A DNA stretch of 47,591 nt from Chalciporus piperatus (lineage: Eukaryota; Basidiomycota; Agaricomycetes; Boletales; Boletaceae). Positions 5,551 to 26,200 of the stretch are shown here, piece after piece. The stretch's first letter is position 1, and each line of letters starts with the position of its first letter. The notes beneath the pieces are model-generated. The model was not told where the DNA came from. It did no database searches and was given only the letters and a program-made list of their open reading frames with translations. Where the stretch lies: NCBI GenBank assembly GCA_038093975.1, contig JBBPTG010000184.1, forward strand, positions 1 to 47,591. Direction: 5' to 3'. The position numbers were made by a program, and so were the translations under genes.

Positions 5551-7506
5551 ATGTCTGGAGGCAGTCATGACGACTACTATGACAAGGAAAAAGGTGTCGT
5601 TGACCCTGGGGTAACGTACGAAATTGAGGTTTCTGCTGATGTTTCCCCGGATGAGGTGATTGCAAAGCGATTCGGTGTCCTTGGTCCTTTTCTCTCCAAA
5701 CTTTTCAACCATGGTGTAGAAGCGAGAGGTGTTGAGCGTGTACCAGAAAACCAGAGGGAGACAAAGAATGCTTGGAACAAGTGAGTTTTCTCGCTATTTC
5801 TTGGATTTCGATCGTTGCTTATCGTCGTGTGAGCTTGTTGATGTGGTGGTATGGCCATTATTGCCCTAGCCTTGAACTCTACCTCACAATGGAACAGGTC
5901 CGTCAATTATGTACTTACAACCATCCCTGTAGGGGTGTTGGGGCAATTCGTTTTCACTCTGACCCTACCGTGAGTTCACGTCCAACTGGGTGAGCTGTGC
6001 TTATGTCCGGCATAGCCATGCTGTTGCAACTATCCTCTGCTTCGCTGCTCTCGGATCAATAGCGACGGCCTTTATTGCAACTCTTGGTCCGCGAACTGGC
6101 CTTCGAACTATGATTATCACCCGCTATAGCTCTGGCTACATTGGGGGAACCTTATATTCCATCTTAAACATCCTCACCCAGTAAGCACTTTCCCCTCCCG
6201 CTATCACAGACGCTGACATGTCAATCAGACTTGGCTTCTCCACCATCTGCGTCATTCTCGGAGGCCAGACGCTTGCTTCAATCCACACAAATACCCTTCC
6301 ACTCGTCGTCGGCATCATAATCATCGGTATCTGCTGCCTCATCCCTTGTTTCATTGGCTACGACATGGTCCACTATTACGAGCGTTACGCTTGGATTACC
6401 ACTTTCTTCATCTTGTGTTGTCTCTATGGACTCGGAGGCAAAGCCGGATTCGATGTGAACGCTCAAAAGCCGTTGGAAGACAGTGGCAGAGCGCTCAGCG
6501 CTGACATTATCAGTTTCGGAGCAGTTGTCTTTGGGTCGGTCGCAGGTTGGGCCCCCGTCGCGGCCGACTACAACGTTCGTTTGCCAGTGGACACGAATCC
6601 ATGGCGGATATTCACCTTGACGTTCTGGGGTCTGTATATTCCGGTGTGTTTCACCTCGATATTGGGTGCTTGTTTGGTGACGATCACCGATCCTGCATAC
6701 GTGGAAGCTTTCGGCCCCGGTGGGAGCACAGGTGGATTGGTCGCTCAAGTGTTATCTCCCTGGAAAGGTGGAGGTAAATTCTTGCTCGTCTTACTGTCCT
6801 TGAGCGTCACGTGAGTCCCCAAGTCTTCATCGTTTGGTAGGAGGCTCAGGCTGACATGTCTATCCAGCGCAAATAATATCCCAAATACCTATTCGACAGG
6901 TCTTTCTATCCAATCCCTCGGTCGTCCTTTCGCCATCATACCTCGTTTCGTCTGGGTCTTCTTCGCTTTCGTCGCTTATACCGTGGCCGGCGTTGCTGGC
7001 CGAGAGCATTTGAGCGCCATCCTTAGCAACTTTTTATCCATCCTAAGTTATTGGATCGCATTCTTTGTCGTGATCATCGCAGAGGAGCACTTTTTGTTCA
7101 GGAGGCAAGGGGGAAGGCTGGGAGGGTACAATTTGTCAGATTGGGACAATCCGTCCAAGTAAGTCTCGTCTCCTCCCTTCTCCGGATGCGCGATTGTTCG
7201 AACTCTGAGATTCCTTCGTGTTCTTCCCCCAGACTCCCTCTTGGCATAGCGGGAATCTTGGCCGCCTGTTTCGGTGTTGCAGGCGCGGTCGTCGGGATGT
7301 CTCAAATTTGGTACACGGGTCCCCTTGGGAAGATGGCCGGTGCCACGTATGGCGCTGATCTCGGATTCGAGGTACATTGCGGTTTTTCGTCGATCTTCCA
7401 AGTTTCGCTCGCTCACTCTATTCTTTCTACTTAGCTCGCGGCTGCTTTTTCAGCAGTGACTTTTCCACCATTGCGATGGTTGGAGATCCGGTTGACGGGT
7501 CGTTGA
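5551..7506 (+). CDS. NCS1 purine/cytosine permease
   Basis: Model join(5551..5780,5898..5969,6016..6180,6229..6810,6868..7158,7233..7371,7435..7506), 516 aa, with all six introns GT-AG and in phase. The protein belongs to the nucleobase:cation symporter-1 family (Fcy2 type), plasma-membrane H+ symporters for adenine, guanine, hypoxanthine and cytosine. The cytosolic N-terminus carries the family box ARGVERVPENQRET (about 59-72). About twelve membrane segments follow, with signature stretches LGPRTGLRTMIITRYSSGY, VAGWAPVAADYNVRLP and LSVTANNIPNTYSTGLSI. The C-terminus ends soon after the last helix at LEIRLTGR. The first intron (117 nt) is the least certain; the first membrane segment looks short for the family, so a small exon could be missed there. 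Substrate is inferred from family only. Confidence 0.9.
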
Positions 7507-7653
7507 GAACCGTCGACGCACTGTCCGTGTACCTCGTATTGAGATTTTAAGCAGTAATTTTCTTTTCGGGAAATGGATGCAATCATGATATTTAATACAG
7601 AGTTGACAATTCCAGAAAGTCCGCGTGCATCAACGCAGTGAAACCGACACCCC

Positions 7654-10600
7654 TCACGACACGTCCATTCCATCTCCCGACGCTCCAGGCACGTCCGAAA
7701 CGGAATCAAGCGACGAAGACAGAGGAACACCCACACCACTCGGTGGCGAGACGACCGCCTCCTCGATCACGATGTCTTCAACGAGCTCTGGTGGAAGCTG
7801 TGACAAAAACACTCTATTAGCCGTCCTCACATCCTCCTGCAAGGAATATGAACGAACGTAAGTAAAAAAAAGGGGATGGGGGACCATCAATGAAAGAAAA
7901 CGACGCACCTTGATCTCCTCTGGCCAAGGGAGATCAGATAGAGGACCCTCGTTCTCCGGCATCGCTCGGGAGTAAAACAAGAGGTAGGGCCCTGCGTTGA
8001 GATGACGGCCCATCTCGTCACTGAGCACGACCTCCTCTGGGACCTGCAGAAGACAGTGTCAGTATGCCGTGCCTGATTCGCGTACCGAGTGGATCACCTT
8101 CTCGATCAACGAATCTGCGATCTTCCACCAACAAGATCTATCGTGAACATAAGAGTACAGGTGTTTCCGGCCATATTGACCGTCGTGCACAAATACCACG
8201 CGGAGATTGTACTAATGCATGGATATTAGTTAGGTTCTTGGGTGACGAAGAGCAGGGTGCAGCTCAACGTACCTGAAATTGTTGCAACTCTTCACAGTCG
8301 AGTAATGTTTCGGCCTCTGTACTCAGTCTTGCTATCTTCTCCTCAGTGGCTATCGATTAGGTGTCGTCAGCAGTGAGCTCATACAAAAAGCGACGTGTTT
8401 CAGACCTTTTACGATGTCATCGATGGTGGTCAGGATGCTTTTCAGCTTCTCTGCCGTTGCCTTTATCGAGGCTGCGCGCTCCTCGTCATCCTTGGCCTCT
8501 GCCACGTTCTCGTAGTAGAAGATGGTGGATCGCAAGTCGTCAAGCGTTTCCTTGCCCTATCGCCATAACCAGTTGCAGACAGCGGTGATACCTCTCAAAA
8601 AAGACGAACTCACATTGAAATGCGTCAACGTCTTCTTATACAACACCAGCCTCTGCACTTCCTCATACATCTCACGTCTCTGCTGCCGTTTCGCATGCGC
8701 GAGCTCGACGTTCTCTCTCAAGAACTGGTCGAGGTATATCGATTTGGGATATGTGAACAATTTTCTCTCTACTCTCTCTCCGTCCGCGGTATTGCTGCTC
8801 GGAGAGGAACGAAAGAGTTCGAAAGCGACGACCTCAGATGGATCAAAAATGACACTCTGTTTACCTGGTTCGGGAGGTTTCGATAGTTGTGCAGAGAGGC
8901 ATTTGATGAGATCGTTCGCTTCTCCACCGTTGACGTCGATAGGGACGATGGATGTTTCTTGAAGTAGTTCGCCTGGTTCACCTATACTACTTCCATACTG
9001 GAAGTGTAATAATCGCGGTCTGACGCAAACCTTAGACGATCTTCATCTGTGAAGCGTGAATAACTCACTTTGGGGGAAGTTGACCACTGTGCACGAACTG
9101 CTCGACAAATGCCTTCTCAAGGGTAGCCGCGAGCTTGGCGAAGAACTCTGAATTGTCCCATCAGTCAATCATCCAGCAAACGACGAAGCGAAACGCGCAC
9201 ACGCACTTCTCGAAAGCTCTCCTGGTGTCCCCGACGGAGGCAAGGGATCGATGTTGAATGCCGAGAGAAGTTTGTCCACATTGAGATCGCATAGGCGAGC
9301 GAGATCCATGTGGGTGAATATCTCGCTGAGGGACCAGAGGGTATAATCTACATAGCACCGTTCAGTAAGTTCTCTCCAATTAACCAAGAGCAAATACCTG
9401 GACCGTCAATCGGTAGCGATACTTCAACCTCCTCTGTTGGAACTGGAGGACGCCAGCATGCCATACGTACCCTCACTTGTGGTACATAGAACAACCCCTG
9501 AAGGATGCTCGTGGCGTACACAGCGGTGTGCATCGAAGGACGCAGCACGACGGGACTGATTATGTTCAAAGCCATGTCAATGGCGGGGCAAAAACCTTGG
9601 TCTGAATGGACACTCACCGTCCATCCCTTCGTAACTGCTGCTCAACAGGGAACGGTTCGAGCGCGTCCGAGTCAGTCTGTTCCAAGCTCGCCTCGATTGC
9701 CCGCTCCAAGTCGGCTTGCTACCCGTCCGCGATTGCATCATCAGTCCAAACCATTCCAACCATGCGAATGAGGGGAAAAGAAGGACAGAGCAATCAACTA
9801 GCGACTCACATCTGACGGTACCATCGCCCAATTCGGATCCGGTGGACGCTCGCTAGGGCCAAACACAGGCCCCTCCGGAGGCGTTTGCATCTGTGACTGC
9901 GACTGTACTGACTGCATCGACTCCTGCATCGCTCTTTGAAAATCTGCGTCTTCGTCCAACGTCAAATCGATCACTGGCGTATTAGGGCGTCCCTGCGGAT
10001 GCTGTGACTGGGAGTGGGGTTGGACTTGCATTCGGGACTGGGCCTGGGCCTGGGCTTGGGCTTGGGACTGGGCTAGTGTGAGCGCGACGGCGCTTGGAGA
10101 GACATCGGCGCCACGTTCGCCTTCCAGGAGTGCCGAGGCAGCTTTCTCGAGGTTTCCGTCGTATTTGCGAAGTACACGTCGTACGACGGCGTGATCGACC
10201 CCCTCCGAGTCGCCCATCATCCCGATCAACATGTCGACCCCAGGTTCCTCCTCTGGCAACATGTGCATCTTTGAGTCTTCCTGCGCGTTCTTCTGTTTTG
10301 TATCGGTCTTGGTCTGAGGTCGCGTGCGAGTGAGAGTCTTGAGGTTGTCGGTCGATCCAGCACTAGCACTAGTGGTGCTGTTGTTGCGCCTGTCACTGAA
10401 CTCCCCAAAGTCGTCCTCTTCGGTATCCGTAAAATGCAACGAATTATCTCCCTCCTCCTTGTCCTTGTCTCTATCCTCGATACCCTTCGATTCTGGATAT
10501 CGAATCCTCCGATGTGGAACGTGAAAATGTGGAACAGGAAGAGGCGGCAACGGATGATTCAATGATGGCAGATGGACTCCGTGCGAGACGCGCGACTCGA

Positions 10601-10670
10601 GTTGGTGCGCCACCGAGTGCAGAATCCCGCGTACGTTGTCTCTGAATCTCATCGGCGTCTGGCCAGTCAT
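7654..10670 (-). CDS. USP25/28-like deubiquitinase homologue lacking the catalytic Cys
   Basis: Model complement(join(7654..7836,7909..8043,8098..8211,8273..8349,8406..8556,8614..8986,9069..9147,9207..9347,9398..9555,9618..9718,9810..10670)), 790 aa. N-terminal part: a UBA/CUE-like helix bundle (146-184, DMLIGMMGDSEGVDHAVVRR), a Gln-rich run, a SUMO-interacting core VIDLT (233-237), and two ubiquitin-interacting motifs (DADFQRAMQESMQ 241-253; ADLERAIEASLEQ 289-301). This order is that of animal USP25/USP28. The USP fold begins at RPVVLRPSMHTAVYA: where active enzymes have GNTC, this has HTA (Ala332), and the box contains no Cys. A charged coiled coil (AHAKRQQRREMYEEV onward) sits inside the domain, as in USP25/28. 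The His box (GRKHLYSYVHD, His664) and Asp680 (WWKIAD) remain, then GPYLLFYSRA. Likely a ubiquitin/SUMO-binding pseudoenzyme. The acceptor at 8986 could instead be 8989. Confidence 0.85.
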
Positions 10671-11318
10671 CCCGAGTCGTAATGATATGAGATCGTAGAT
10701 ACGTTTTTGATTCTTTACTACATAGTAGGGTGGCCTCGAGGCGTTGCATCCACATTACATGGCCATATGGCTTCCCGGGCCTTGAGGCAACGTCGTTTCC
10801 CCTGTCATTGTCAGTGATCTTGATCATACACGACGCTCATCGACTCAGACACGATCCATCACACTGGCACCACCAGGGTACCCCACCATGCGGACTGAGA
10901 TATGAGTACTCGAGTTTTGAATTACGGGATCTACAAATACTGATGGGTAGCGTAGTACGGAGCGCATTCGACGCGACATCTGGTCATACGAGCCGAGTCG
11001 TCGAAAGGCAGAACAATTCAAACAGGCCTAAACGTATATGTACGGGCAAAAAAAAAGCGGGGTGAAACGAACAAAACATTAACCAAGAAACGGACTAATC
11101 GAGCCAGCGCAGACTTGGGGGGAGATTGAGAGATACACCGAGGATGCAGAGAAAAAGCAAAGAGGTTGAGGAGAGGAAAAACACAATACACAGGTTTAGG
11201 ATGAGTTCAAGATGTAAGAGGGTAGCGATGCGAGGGGGGGACAAGCGAACGTCCAATCGTCCATGGGGGATGTTTCAACGTCCATTTTTTGCACTGTGCA
11301 CTGTCTTCACCTTTTCCA
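10671..11318. other. Intergenic stretch between two minus-strand genes
   Basis: This probably holds the promoter of the USP-like gene and the 3' UTR of the transcription factor gene. I see no gene. A run of A residues lies near 11046-11054. Confidence 0.4.
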
Positions 11319-14300
11319 CTACGAAGGTGGCGGATTGTCTACGTCCAACACACGTCAGTCTCCCTCTCCCCTCCCTCGCTTCACAAACCAAACGGGACTC
11401 ACCATAAAGACCACCATACTGCCCATTCAAATACAACCCTTCCTGAGGCTGCCCAGCCCCACCAGGCGCCTGCCCATACGCCATCCCCATCTGCGGGAAC
11501 GACGTATAATCATTCCAAAACTGAGGATACCTCCCTCCTCCCGTCTCATACCCCTGTCCGCCACCTCCCCCTGCACCACCTGCACCACCATGCCCATGTC
11601 CATGCCCGTGTCCACCATGTCCACCATGCCCATGCCCACTATGTCCATGTCCATTCATCCTCCCCACACTCGCCATCCGTCTCTCATCAATCAACCCCGT
11701 ACTATACATCTGCGGCAACACCGACGTCGACAACGTCCCCGGAAAAGACATGTACGATCCCCCATCCGAAGGCCACGGATAATACGACGAAGGCTGTTGT
11801 CCCCCTGACATGCTCGACGCAGACGAAAACTCCTCCCCAGCACCACCACCACCACCAGCAGGTCCACCCAGCTCTTGTGACAACGCAGGGTATTGCGTGC
11901 TACGCCAAGTCTGAACGTAGGGTTGTGAGGCGGCGAGGGGACCGTTGCTCGAGGGAACGTGCATCTGAGAACGCTCATAGGCGTCTTCAGAGTCTGCAGC
12001 GTGTTCGGCAGCACGTTTGGGTCGTTCTTGATTACCTCCGGATGTCACGAGTTGACCGAAACGACTCCCGTTGACCGTGTTCTTGCTCAATGGATTACAC
12101 CCACGTAAGAGTTCGTGAGCACGAGCTGCAGAGGGCCAAACGGTTTCCATGTCTTGCAAAGCGTCCATACACTTGACAAGTCCCATTCGTGCTTGTGGAT
12201 CGTTTGGATAGAGTGAGACTTGTGAAGAAGAAAAAAGCAAAAACATGAGCACCACGCTCCCGCACGTATGCAGAAAGACTACTCACGACTCGTGACATGC
12301 ATAATCCCAGCCGTGAAAACGTAGAAACATAGAAAGACAGGTGCCCGTTGGAGGCAATATATTTCGCGATAAAACGCCACTGCAAACAACGATGATTAAC
12401 ACCCACGAGTCGACACACACGCCAAGCAACGAGGAGAAACCAACCTATCGACGCAATATGGTTCGCCGCACCCACACAAAGCTCATAGTTTTTCATACTC
12501 GCCGCACGAACATCTGCCTCTTCCGCATTCTCCGATTTCCTAAACGCCACCATGTCAGCTAAACCACCCTCCTCTTCTAAACCCAGAATAAGAGCCACCC
12601 ACTGCTTGTTCAACAAGTAAATCTGTCGGATGCTAGAAGAAGAAAAAGACGCCCAAACGTCATCAGCCCCAACCCCCCAGGAGAAACACCCCACTCACAA
12701 AGGCCGATGCAACAACAACGTCGTACACCAATATTGCATGTGCAACGTCAATATATGCGGCGGCGGTATCCTCCTATTACTCGTCCCACTCAGATTCCCC
12801 CTCGAATCATAACGCAATTCGAATCGTAACTGTTCTGGTAGATCGAGGTACCATTTGTCCAATAATCCTTCGATGTGGGCGCATTCGGCGTGTCGGGAGG
12901 TCGACGTCCGGATGGCGTAGATCGATTGGACGATCCTGGAGAGGATCGTGGCTGTGTAGAGTCGTTTCGATGACGATGACGATCGGTGATCAGAAGTACA
13001 ACAGTCGTGATGGCGAGGAGGTGACTTACAAAGTTTGGCAGAAGCGGCGAAACACGACAGTATGCGTCCTGGTACAGGCGGTGTTGCCTCTGTCCCAGGT
13101 CGATACCCATGTCCCCTCGTATCTGGCGGTAACGACGGATGAGGTGCCCACATCTCCTTCTCTTCATCCTATTCCCAAAAACACACGCACCATCAGCCCT
13201 GGCAAAAAAAAATGAAAAAATTTCCCGAGAGATTCACCCACCTCATCAACACCAGGCACTTGCGTGTCATAATCCTTCTCGAAAATAGCCAACGGTCTCC
13301 CAATATACGTACTCACATACCCGTCCAACGTCACACATCCCCACCAAATTCTTCTTCGTTCCTGCAACTCTCGCGAACCGAACAATCGTCCCACACCGAC
13401 GCGTGCCCAACCATCGGCAGCGCGGTGCATACCAAGGTCTTGAGCCATTCGAACGGCCATACCAGTGTATGCCCACGCTTGAGCCATGGCCCCGATGCCG
13501 ATTTCTCGGAAACCGAGGAGAAGGAGTGATTGGACAGTCGAAGGCATGGAGGAGGCGTATGTGTTGTCGAGAAGGTTTTTGGCCAATAAGAGGAAGTTGT
13601 CCCCTGCCATCCACATCGGAGTGGGCTCCGGCCGATGTGGTGACGTTGGCGTCGAACTATGAGAGAATGGTGGAGGTGTAGAGGACGGCGAGTACCGAGC
13701 AGCGATGGCAAACATGCAGAGCAACAAAAGCGTCGATACGTGCCGTCGCTTTCCTTGTAACGGAGCGGGGGAGGTGCCTGTTCCACCTTGAAGCTGATCA
13801 GACGCTGGAGAAGGTGTATCCGTAGGATTCTGCATGCTAAAATGCAAAATATATGTTCAAATGATAACGCAACCAACGTTTGTAAAGCCATTCTTACCTT
13901 TGGTATCCTTCCCAAAAAGCATCCTTCTGGAGGATGGGGAACGCAGGATGAACATAGGTAAAGTAGAGCTCAAGCAAGTGTTCTTGCATCGCAGGGTCTG
14001 GCAACATCGGTGCCAGGTCACTATCGAGAGCTGCTGATGTAAGTGGAAGGTTTCCAGTGCTTGCATTAAGAGGGAGCTTGCTAGAGGAAGCACCCGAGAA
14101 CTGACCAATAGAGGTGGACGGCGACGCTGGTGTGTTCGACGTCGTAGATGGAAGGGGCGGCCAGACGCGTGCCTTTGGGAAACGCCTGGAAACAATCCTC
14201 TCTCAGTAGACGAACGAACCAAGCCATACTCATCCACGTACCATATCCCACCCTCGTTCCTTGCCTGATCTTTGGCATTAATACCGAGGAGGTACAACCC

Positions 14301-21325: not shown

Positions 21326-23213
21326 TTATACAACAGCAGAGAGCTCCAGCATTTCCTGCGATACAGGAGGCATGGAGGAAGGTACGGGGATAGGTGTGTT
21401 GCCGGAGTCAAGTGAACGAGTACCGCGCGAAGTCCTCTCGACAGCCTGAGGAACATCTTGTTGTCCCCGAGCTGTGGTTGCCCCAGGCTGTCGACGAGCG
21501 AAGAGGCCACAGCATCCAACTCGGCCAACCTGAAGGTCCAGGTCAGCTGTGGGAGTATCCCTCGAACCATCACTGCTCTCCTCTCCGGAAGAGGATTCAT
21601 CAATCATCGTGAAGGGTGGGTCGTCTTCAGATGCAGTGGACGTCGTCCGAGTACCACGTGAGTTTTGACTGCCATCATTCACGCTGTGCCTTGACGCGAC
21701 GTATGTGCGCTGTTTGAGAGACAAACTTGAGTATTCGTGACGAACGGGAGAGTGATTCGCTTACTGGCGGCGCGTATCCTGGATATATTGCGTGCACTCG
21801 ATTGAATACGAGGCGAGGTATCCTCTTCCACCACTGCCAAGGGAGTGGTGAATTATGCTGCTGCACGCGGGATGGATTTTCTCTCGCTGGCAAGCGATCT
21901 TGAAGTGCGGGTCGATGTGGTTCGGGCATCTAATGATCGTCAGCGGCAGGCATCGGAAAGGAGACATGTATAGTATCCAAGCTCACATCACGAAAATCAA
22001 GGTTAGGGATTGTCGAAGGACCGCTGGCGTCAGGCAAGACCACCGCTGGCATCTATACATATGGAAGGTCAGAAACAGCAGACATGGCGAGCGCTGGGAC
22101 GCACGTCAAGGAGGGCATGTAGGGCCTATAGTATTGAGGTAAGTCAACAAACTGATCGTGAACGAATGGTAGTACCTCTCGATCGTCGTCATCCCGCGAG
22201 GGGACATGCCAGATGTGGAGTACTCCTCCGGGCCAATCGGCAGAGGCAAAAAACTCTCCCGAAGGCGAGAATGTAATTGCAAGGTTTGATTTACGGGGGA
22301 GCGGCTCTCCAATAGGGTTCCAAGACTCCGCATCCCAAAAGCGAATTGTGTCATTCGGGTTGACACTGCCGCCACTGGCAATAGCATTGGCACTGGCGAG
22401 ACACTTGCCATCAGGTGAGAGGTGCAGATGCTCCAACTTGAAACCACCACTGTGCGCAACCCATGGCTCGCCGATGGGCTCGCCTGTGTCAGATCTGAAA
22501 CAACGAATTTGACTCGCGTCGATCTTGCTCAGGTAGTAACCACAGAAAAGTCGAGCACCATCAAGTGACCATGGCCCGGGGATAGGGAAGCGTGGATCGC
22601 GGCCTTCGATACTGTCTAGCGTAAGGATATTCTCACCAGTTTCGACATCGAAAACAATGAATCCGAACTCGGTGGATACCGCGATTCGCCTGCTATCCGG
22701 GGAGAAACGCACTGCCTGCGAACCACGGGGGAAGGAACGAAACCACCGCCAGTCGCTCTTGAATTGAAGGTGACGTTTGACTTGCAGAGCCCCCACGATC
22801 TCCCAGAAGACAAGGCCATTATTGTGATAAGTGGCGAGGAGCTCTTCATTTGGGGATAATGCCATCCGTTGAATAGGACCATAGCCTGTCTTCCGAAGTG
22901 CCTTGGACTCTACCACTTTCTGCGTATCCATGCTCCATACTACCAGATGATCCGTCCCATAGGAAGATGAAAAGATCTTCCCATCTTTAGTGGCCACCAC
23001 GATCGTGCCACGTTTCCTGCTCTCCATTGAAGTACCCACTTGTGTGCCGTCCGTCGAATTCCAGATCCGCACAGTGCCTTCGTATGAGCTAGTAATGATA
23101 CGGTCACCAGGAAGCCATACTATGGAAGTTATCTTGTCGGTATGACCAGTTGATATGGTCAATATTGGCCTGGGCGAACTCTCTGTCGGTTGTTCAACCT
23201 GTGAGACTTCCAT
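21326..23213 (-). CDS. WD40-repeat protein with agaric-type C-terminal tail
   Basis: Model complement(join(21326..21709,21765..21929,21987..22052,22105..22125,22176..23213)), 557 aa. Residues 1-346 form one beta-propeller: HTDKITSIVWLPGDRIITSS...VRIWNSTDG opens the first blade, and later blades carry IQRMALSPNEELLAT, QAVRFSPDSRRIAVS, LSPDGKCLASA...IRFWDAESW and ITFSPSGEFFASADW...LHIWHVPS. The protein then passes through a 7-residue micro-exon (ALHALLD, 22105-22125) to a tail with PLPWQWWKRIPRLV and RTYVASRHSVN, and ends in a Ser/Thr/Asp-rich stretch. Similar Trp-rich and YVA tails close many Agaricomycete WD40 proteins. No other domain is present, so it is probably a scaffold of unknown partners. 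ATG 23213 is used; the upstream in-frame codon at 23309 is TTG. Confidence 0.82.
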
Positions 23214-26200
23214 GCTCGTGCGTCTAGATTGAGGTAGGAATGAGTCAGAGACAAGGAGACGGATGATCAGTGCAAAAACCTTGAAGAGCGTGAGCGTTGT
23301 TTGGTTCAAACCAGGCTCGTGTTGTTGAAGAGCTCCACTGAATGATTCACTGTGAATGTGGGTGCCAGTGGGTCCACTGTGTGAACACTGGTCATCATTT
23401 TGGGGTTGTGCAGCGTGCCTGAACGACTCTATCGGTGTGATCTTTATCGCACTTCACCAGAATGACTGGCGTTCACTAAATTCAGCCTGTAAATTTCGAG
23501 CGATGGTGCAGGGGGGATGTACTTTGGTCGACGATTTGAACCAGACCAATGGCATTCTGGCATCACTCGGTATGTTCAAATTCGCTCCACGGAATACTTC
23601 TACTTCATCCCAGCTTCCGTCTGCCCTTCTTCTACATTCTTACCGCCACGTCCACGAACGACCAGCAGCGTCCCCCTTCTTCAAGCCTCCCAGGAACTCG
23701 CCCGTGGATTGATCGCCTCACTTTCAATCCCGCTCTTCCTCGCTCACTCACACGTCACCTTTTATTATTCAAACTTGGACGTCGAGAAGTCCCATCGCAT
23801 CAGCTAGTAATCCGTTCAGTTCTGTCAAAGGCTCAAAACGCGACGCGACCGGGTATCTCCGTTCATTTCTGTCCTTCCCCACATCACCCTGGAGCTCAAC
23901 AAACGTGAAACCGGCATTTCCGTTCAAAACTGGGTGCTACCAAAGCGCTACCAAACGGACAGCTTCTCTAGAACGGCGACAAAACACAGTCAAGCTTCAT
24001 ACCACTCGGGCGGGGTTTGCCTCACGCTGGGTATCGTGGAGGCACGATGAACTCAAAAGTGAAGAGGATACTGATGCGCCCATCATACATCATGATGCTA
24101 TCAGAAGTCAGATCTTTCGGGAAATTTTGTTACTATAACGTGAAGCTGACCGTGACGGGAATATAAAGATAGCTCTGCTTCATGTTGACACTACAACAGA
24201 GACCCTCCATAGGGAGATGACACCCATGTCAAGTGACTTTTAAATTGGTCTCTCAGTGTACGTCGATTCATCATCATTAGTGCACGTTCGATCTGCGTCG
24301 CACGTTTATGGTCATCGACATCCTCCAGGATGCTCCTAAGTAGAAGGAATAGAACGGGGGCGGTCGGACTCCCGATCAGTGGACCAAGTGTAAGCAACCC
24401 CGCATAGCCATGACACCAAAGCGATCAACGTCCTTTGATCGCGCAGTCGCTTCTTCTGATTCATCATCATTCATATGCATCGAAGCCATCAGTCGTACGA
24501 TCTCGAAGTTCAGCGAACGGCCAGCCGCGCTGCGTCCGAGGAGTCGGAGAAAGAACTTGAGTGTCATCATAACTCATTGACTCACCTGAATCCATATGCT
24601 CGGCGAGGATTCTTTGCGCCCAGATGTAATTGTCGGCCAACGTCTCGATAAGCAATTGCAATACGGTACAAGGAAGCAGGAAGAAGTGCCTTTCACTAAC
24701 TCCGACAACACCCTCTTTCAAGTGTGCTTCGCGGCAGATGGATAGATTGACCGCAGCTACATACTCGTTCTGGAGTTTCGAAGGACTAGTTGGGGAATGA
24801 TAAAGGTGGATGGAGTGACAGATCGGCCATCTAATATTTCCTTTCGGATCATCATCGTTATTGTTTCTACGTTCATATCAGATATTTTGAGGATTCGCTG
24901 ACGGGACACGGGCTTGACAGCCTGGCCATAATTTGAGAGACGTTGGGTGGAGGGGGGGGCTTGAGAACACGAATCTGGTAAAGTGATGGAAGTGCTGAGG
25001 ATAAGATAAGTCTCAATCACGAGGTTGGTAGTCTTTAATAATGCCTGGTTCGGTGATACTGCCTGAGGGATAATGTTTCAATTTGCAGGTGTTCCGTCTT
25101 TGTGGTAGAGCCTGGTAGAGCCCATAAGCACCGTGACTCTCCAGGGCCCAGAGTCCTTGCTCTCTCTCGAGCCTTGCTTACTCGGCACAAATCACTGGAG
25201 CGGATCATGGATGCGAAAATTAGCCTCAAAAAGTCTTTTTGACAGCGCGTGGCAGTTGATTTCGCTTCTCGGTGAAGACATACAGTTGCGATGACGTCTC
25301 ACATCGACAGGGTATGGAGTACCCATAAAGGAGTGATGGTAGCCAAGTCCGCAAGGGCATCTTCTTTTGTGCTGCAAGAGAATTCACCTTGTGAACTTGA
25401 GTTTTTTTTCGACACCATGACACGGGGACTGTAGGATCACCTGTCTTTCCCCAACATTTCGACGACAAAACGACAGCGTTGACTTTTCTGATGGCGTTGA
25501 CACAGCCGATGAGCTTGAGAAACGCTCTGGCTCCTGACATCGCGGGGGAAAAGGGTTTCAGACGGGGTTCATCATCTTTTCGTCACGTTCAAGGGTCGGG
25601 AGGCGCTCCCGAGATCGTGGCGTGCATGCCTGAATGAGTGGCGAGCGAACTCTTCATCCGACTGAAGAGTCAAGTTGAAGGAGAGAATTTAGAAAACATT
25701 TACAGGTGTCGTTTCGGGTCTGCTTCTGGTACTGAGAGCTGGGGAGGATGTGAGTGAGTGTTGGGAACAATGGCAGGCCGGAACGCCGACGTCATGCCAC
25801 GTATACGGCATCAGGTCCAGGGCCTTTGGCCCTGAAGGTTTCAACTTTGTACGTGGTTGCTGTAAGTAGCAGCCGCGAGCATCATGGAAGGGTCCCGCGG
25901 AAAAATGCAGCTTTCGCAATTTTAAGGACATTGGAGAGGTCAAGGAACAACGAGTGCCTCGATGTGTCGATGAGCTCGCCAGAGCCTGGAGGACCGACGA
26001 CACTGACAAGCGGGTCCCATGGGGTGCCTGACAACCAGGTCGGACTCGGACCATCCACGGTCTATCATTGTGATTGCATGGAGGAGCTTATCTTCATGAT
26101 TGGTTGTTGGGTAGGAGCATGAAATCGTGACGAAAACACACGCTGCAATGCATTCCACAAGCTGCGCAGTGCATGTGCTCACGTCCACATCTCCAAGGGT

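Follow-up and report, generated by a model that had tools for sequence, protein, structure and literature searches.

What does a relative of the deubiquitinases USP25 and USP28 do when its catalytic cysteine is missing? This question is raised by a gene on the minus strand of a 47,591-nucleotide stretch of DNA from Chalciporus piperatus (Boletaceae; contig JBBPTG010000184.1 of assembly GCA_038093975.1, a genome of 35.5 Mb), hereafter the window. USP25 and USP28 have been studied chiefly as vertebrate enzymes. A first-pass annotation of the window had described the gene as a pseudo-deubiquitinase with the USP25/28 module order and no catalytic Cys, conserved and not dying. We consider it likely that the encoded protein (the window protein) is a USP of the USP25/28 branch that has lost its catalytic activity and persists in the Agaricomycetes as a non-catalytic ubiquitin/SUMO reader or scaffold. 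Sequence comparison gives good support for the catalytic loss; the reading of ubiquitin and SUMO is a function that we infer. The gene probably encodes a working tag reader and is not decaying, because similar dead versions occur in many mushroom-forming fungi.

An eleven-exon gene related to USP25 and USP28

We rebuilt the gene from its exons (Table 1), and all ten introns have GT-AG borders. The start of exon 6 was placed at 9019 by means of the orthologue consensus RLFHFxYG, which added ten residues and lengthened the protein from 791 to 801 amino acids; exon 9 ends at either 8098 or 8086, a difference of 12 bases. Orthologues align across the junction of exons 2 and 3. The best orthologue match of the window protein had an E-value of 3.2e-212, which excludes a chance origin of the gene.

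Table 1. Positions of the pseudo-deubiquitinase gene and its parts in the window
Feature	Position	Strand	Remarks
USP25/28-like pseudo-deubiquitinase gene	7654..10670	minus	11 exons, 801 aa
Exons 1-4	10670-9810, 9718-9618, 9555-9398, 9347-9207	minus	
Exons 5-8	9147-9069, 9019-8614, 8556-8406, 8349-8273	minus	
Exons 9-11	8211-8098, 8043-7909, 7836-7654	minus	
M135	10266..10268	minus	91/108 orthologue records begin near there
UBA-like domain	10113..10238	minus	residues 145-186
SIM VIDLTLD	9954..9974	minus	residues 233-239
UIM1	9909..9947	minus	residues 242-254
Conserved linker between UIMs	9813..9863	minus	residues 270-286, FGPSERPPDPNWAMVPS
UIM2	9674..9718	minus	residues 288-302
Degenerate Cys box	9489..9545	minus	residues 325-343, LRPSMHTAVYATSILQGLF
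Candidate nucleophile columns	A332 9522-9524, V333 9519-9521	minus	
PGELSRKF region at the place of QQDxxEF	9140..9225	minus	residues 415-423, split by intron 9206-9148
Helical insertion in USP domain	8282..8724	minus	residues 546-655, borders approximate (from orthologue P0001), two introns inside
H675, catalytic His column	8161..8163	minus	H in 85/107
A690, third triad residue column	8116..8118	minus	D/N/S in 0/107
D691, fourth critical residue column	8113..8115	minus	D in 100/107

Single-protein searches of Pfam and of PDB sequences were done first, with the 791-residue model. The Pfam UCH model matched at 36.2 bits (cut-off 23.9). The best PDB sequence match was USP25 (E = 8.5e-13), followed by USP28 (8.5e-12); there was no further USP at E-values up to 1, and the one other match was a SAM-domain protein (0.46). 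A profile of 37 orthologues, built without the window protein, matched USP25 with an E-value of 2.1e-35, the next family being USP47 (4.5e-06), and also matched N-terminal constructs (2mux, 2.4e-07; 2lva, 1.8e-04). When the fungal profile was aligned with one of vertebrate USP25/28, the probability was 99.8 and the E-value 4.5e-28 over 569 columns, covering vertebrate residues 19-706. Superposition of a predicted structure on USP28 had been suggested in the first-pass annotation; the best matches of the predicted structure of the Imleria orthologue were indeed USP28 and USP25, with some USP28 rows tied in Z with USP34, and 412 residues of the model aligned to a USP28 structure with the insertion (6h4i).

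The likeness to vertebrate USP25 and USP28 (peptidase C19) thus extends over the UBA domain, the VIDLT SUMO-interacting motif (SIM), the two ubiquitin-interacting motifs (UIMs) and a USP fold with a helical insertion. A large insertion in the catalytic domain, through which the proteins dimerize, is described as a trait of USP25/28, as is a region of about 340 amino acids after the USP domain (PMC6509359). That C-terminal region is absent from the window protein, which ends about 80 amino acids beyond the USP fold, and the profile alignment ends at vertebrate residue 706. The fungal protein also differs in having a conserved linker between the UIMs and in having lost the Cys box, the oxyanion Asn, the third triad residue and the QQDxxEF box. 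Vertebrate USP28 as a query missed the gene and recovered two other loci of the genome, one on C2 that we take to be USP7-like and one on C57 that we take to be Ubp2-like (five candidates scored), which counts against a close likeness to USP28 at the level of single sequences. Because two traits are missing, the catalytic Cys box and the C-terminal region, we did not file the protein in the USP25/28 enzyme family, although it is USP25/28-like. We found no description of this fungal family in the open-licence PMC literature, subscription papers being outside the search.

To our knowledge, USP39/Sad1 and other pseudo-deubiquitinases of the USP class, which resemble the fungal protein in that their USP fold lacks the usual catalytic residues, have no UBA-SIM-UIM tandem. 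USP39/Sad1 has an N-terminal zinc finger, unlike the fungal protein, and is given a scaffold role in splicing in a paper that also calls its inactivity debated (PMC10919355).

The catalytic center

Catalytic residues were counted in 109 rows, the window protein and 108 orthologue records, after ten fragments (P0105-P0113 and P0123) had been dropped; eight of the 108 records taken as fungal have sources without a name. MAFFT, HMMER and hhalign all placed the vertebrate Cys over A332, the residue that the first-pass annotation had named as the nucleophile position, and no orthologue has Cys in this column (0/108). In P0012 and P0093, which have a natural Cys, the Pfam UCH profile enters at its column before the Cys and starts one residue ahead of that natural Cys; by this profile, V333 is the nucleophile column. 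With V333, the alignment runs without gaps into the helix YAxxxLQxLF. Column 333 holds Cys in 7 of the 108 records; V (43) and A (32) make up most of the rest. Both alignments stand, and the residue replacing the catalytic Cys is by alignment either A332 or V333. The window protein has Cys at neither position.

The loss was found to go beyond the single nucleophile that the first-pass annotation had described. The oxyanion Asn is missing from all 108 orthologues at either matching column (327 or 328), none of 107 rows has D, N or S at the third triad column, and the QQDxxEF box is gone as well. Compared with vertebrate USP25/28, the Cys box has one extra residue. The His and Asp reported earlier as His664 and Asp680 are H675 and D691 after renumbering; the His is indeed retained in the window protein, its column drifting among the orthologues (His in 85 of 107 rows, Gln in 13), and the Asp is the fourth critical residue and not the third, which is A690. 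Where active deubiquitinases have a Cys-His-Asp/Asn triad, the window protein has A332 or V333, H675 and A690. In the terminology of PMC10867860, the fourth residue is Asp in more than 96% of human USPs, and the third is described there as dispensable in USP1 and USP15. If only the third residue were missing, inactivity would thus not be proven. Loss of the nucleophile, as read from the alignments, makes inactivity of the window protein very likely.

A cDNA with an exon supplying a GNTC box, or orthologues with Cys at this position, had been named in advance as observations that would speak against a pseudoenzyme. We ruled out an alternative exon with a Cys box, since none of the six frames of 7600-10760 has GNTC in frame; the only such string, near 8168, is out of frame within exon 9. 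Sequencing error was ruled out because the nine best-scoring orthologues (66-72% identity) also have a Cys-less box. Orthologues with Cys do exist, but in other lineages: the seven with Cys-333 are P0012-P0016 (Pisolithus, Scleroderma and one without a name), P0042 (Phlebia brevispora) and P0093 (metagenome). Six of these seven retain the His, P0042 being the exception, all retain the fourth Asp, and none has the oxyanion Asn. Taken over the 108 rows, the residue counts show that the catalytic loss is no local accident.

N-terminal modules and the linker between the UIMs

The order UBA, SIM, UIM, UIM is, at the level of sequence, that of USP25/28. In the window protein, Pfam detected UIMs in two stretches (22.2 bits, cut-off 21) and a CUE/UBA-type match slightly under its cut-off (20.2 against 21.1). 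Loose patterns for the modules were present in 102 (SIM), 103 (UIM1) and 102 (UIM2) of the 109 rows, and VIDLT was found in all 30 vertebrate-type USP25/28 sequences.

At most 25 residues precede the UBA column in 91 of the 108 orthologue records, which therefore start near M135. N-terminal extensions of 140-172 residues were present in four Boletaceae records (P0002, P0005, P0009 and P0028), and that of the window protein has 144. With residues 1-134 as a BLAST query, P0005 (34%, E = 2.8e-05) and P0028 (E = 1.8e-04) were matched, the best match among metagenome fragments was P0109 (E = 2.9e-08), and P0002 and P0009 were below significance.

Between the UIMs, the fungal orthologues share a linker, FGPSxRxPDPNWAMVPSN, that is conserved like the SIM (0.96 against 1.04 bits of entropy). 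The strict pattern PSxRxPxPxW occurs in 65 of the 109 rows, and the linker was absent from all 30 vertebrate-type sequences. In the host genome, its sole match under an E-value of 0.1 is the pseudo-deubiquitinase gene itself. Another gene, at G000:C2:158814-159125 (minus strand), weakly matches the SIM-UIM-linker region of P0001 (24% identity, E = 9e-4; 0.155 with a short query).

Conservation among mushroom-forming fungi

The family comprises long proteins in 108 records beside the window protein. We built a tree by a quick method from 93 rows (88 fungal, including the query, and 5 vertebrate), with the Cys-box and His columns excluded and 21 further fungal rows dropped. Boletales, Polyporales, Agaricales, Russulales, Hymenochaetales and Gloeophyllales formed one branch each, class and order being presumed from species names, and the query was sister to six rows taken as Boletaceae. 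The tree thus tracks the fungal orders, as expected from sequences inherited vertically. It requires three changes for Cys at column 333 and nine for the His. Fungi and vertebrates are separated by a very long stem (2.73 on either side), and we drew no rooting from the tree.

Conservation was measured as mean entropy in bits over 15 regions, lower values being more conserved. The His-box strand was lowest (0.63), followed by the helix after the Cys loop (0.89), the last USP strand region (0.92), the linker and the SIM; the QQD-like box (1.78), the insertion (1.97), the Cys loop (1.99) and the palm/fingers (2.24) were variable. These profiles, together with the residue counts, the tree and the module patterns, bear out the earlier description of a conserved pseudo-deubiquitinase with its reader modules kept. 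Outside the Agaricomycetes, there was no named match except vertebrate USP25/28 (7,991-7,994 candidates per search; in one search, among the best 120 of 159). No active fungal member with the UBA-SIM-UIM-UIM modules was reached in the orthologue searches made.

Other USP genes in the genome

A close active paralogue was ruled out: with P0001 as the query, only the pseudo-deubiquitinase gene was found, save for the 24% match on C2. A USP with intact GNTCYLNS, GHY and YND motifs is present on G000:C57 (about 138.2-140.2 kb), which we presume from motif likeness to be Ubp2-like. When its open frames were roughly joined, the best PDB matches were likewise USP28 and USP25 (1.7e-16). This USP has extra helical-looking sequence ahead of the His box; it differs from the pseudo-USP in its intact motifs. 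No SIM or UIM pattern was found in the three forward frames of a 5-kb stretch there, which possibly does not include the whole N terminus. Among 14 other UCH stretches examined in the genome, the frame scan resolved seven, each of them with a canonical Cys box.

Proposed role and alternatives

The UBA-SIM-UIM tandem would bind ubiquitin chains and SUMO, with a preference for Lys48-linked chains by analogy with the UIMs of USP25, which are reported to bind them (PMC5361193). The insertion may dimerize the fungal protein as it does USP25 and USP28. As a platform with no activity of its own, the pseudo-USP fold could shield tagged clients or tune an active Ubp2-like relative or a ligase in the same cell; scaffold or allosteric roles have been described for other pseudo-deubiquitinases (PMC10919355).

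Several observations weigh against a dead reader. The Pfam UIM model found only 17 of the 37 family members (E-value 0.01), and other models found 1 (USP_UIM_N), 1 (UBA_8), 14 (UBA_HYPK) and 12 (CUE), so the modules are weak by single-protein Pfam. Their conservation is moderate (UBA 1.62, UIM1 1.63 and UIM2 1.44 bits), and D691 is kept in spite of the missing nucleophile. USP53 and USP54, annotated as pseudoenzymes, have been reported to be active (PMC12037411). Some lineages might also retain or have regained activity, given Cys-333 in seven rows and a third residue that is dispensable in some USPs. The protein could then still be a deubiquitinase of unusual mechanism, using another Cys or, where present, Cys-333 with the His, kept in six of those seven rows, and the fourth Asp, kept in all. 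We regard this as quite unlikely: the five Cys of the window protein all lie outside the loop 325-333, the oxyanion Asn is missing throughout, the Cys box is one residue too long by the vertebrate standard, and P0042 has Cys without His.

Drifting catalytic residues, including a His that changes nine times on the tree, would fit a gene decaying under relaxed constraint with its function gone, as would palm/fingers and an insertion as variable as the Cys loop and the absence of each module pattern from 6-7 of the 109 rows. Such decay appears very unlikely for a long protein that is present in 108 records, whose tree follows the fungal orders and whose SIM, linker, post-Cys-loop helix, His-box strand and last USP strand region are all conserved. 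It is also unlikely, though a little less so, that the S1 site of the pseudo-USP fold is what binds ubiquitin, making the protein a capping competitor of an active deubiquitinase that the N-terminal modules only position. The fold is conserved, and its His-box strand is the most conserved region measured. However, the QQDxxEF box, which contacts the ubiquitin tail, is replaced by a PGELSxxF-like sequence, and the palm/fingers are the most variable part of the USP domain measured. A dead USP kept for its reader modules thus remains the reading that we prefer.

We put forward a broader history only tentatively, and on balance doubt it. The UBA-SIM-UIM-UIM-USP architecture would predate animals; the Agaricomycetes would have dismantled the enzyme into a dual ubiquitin/SUMO reader while the Ubp2-like relative kept catalysis, and the nucleophile position would have become Cys again in three lineages. 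Our doubt is slightly greater because it is uncertain whether the Cys of those lineages stands in the nucleophile column. If true, this history would raise the question of whether a pseudo-deubiquitinase can be re-awakened in nature. With the Cys-bearing orthologues of Pisolithus and Scleroderma, a return of activity can be tested directly. A fungal branch with reader modules and no catalysis would show which parts selection keeps once the enzyme is lost and suggests that the reader tandem is older than the split of fungi and animals. The fungal pseudo-USPs would be natural separation-of-function proteins.

Neighboring sequences

Elsewhere in the window, a cytosine/purine-type permease sequence lies next to the gene at 6185-6814 on the plus strand (Pfam PF02133, 5e-10). 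A fungal-specific transcription factor domain (13164-13856, minus strand; PF04082, 3.8e-27) and a WD40 protein (22053-23453, minus strand) were also found; the best model for the latter was the THOC3 propeller, at 71 bits far under its cut-off of 305.
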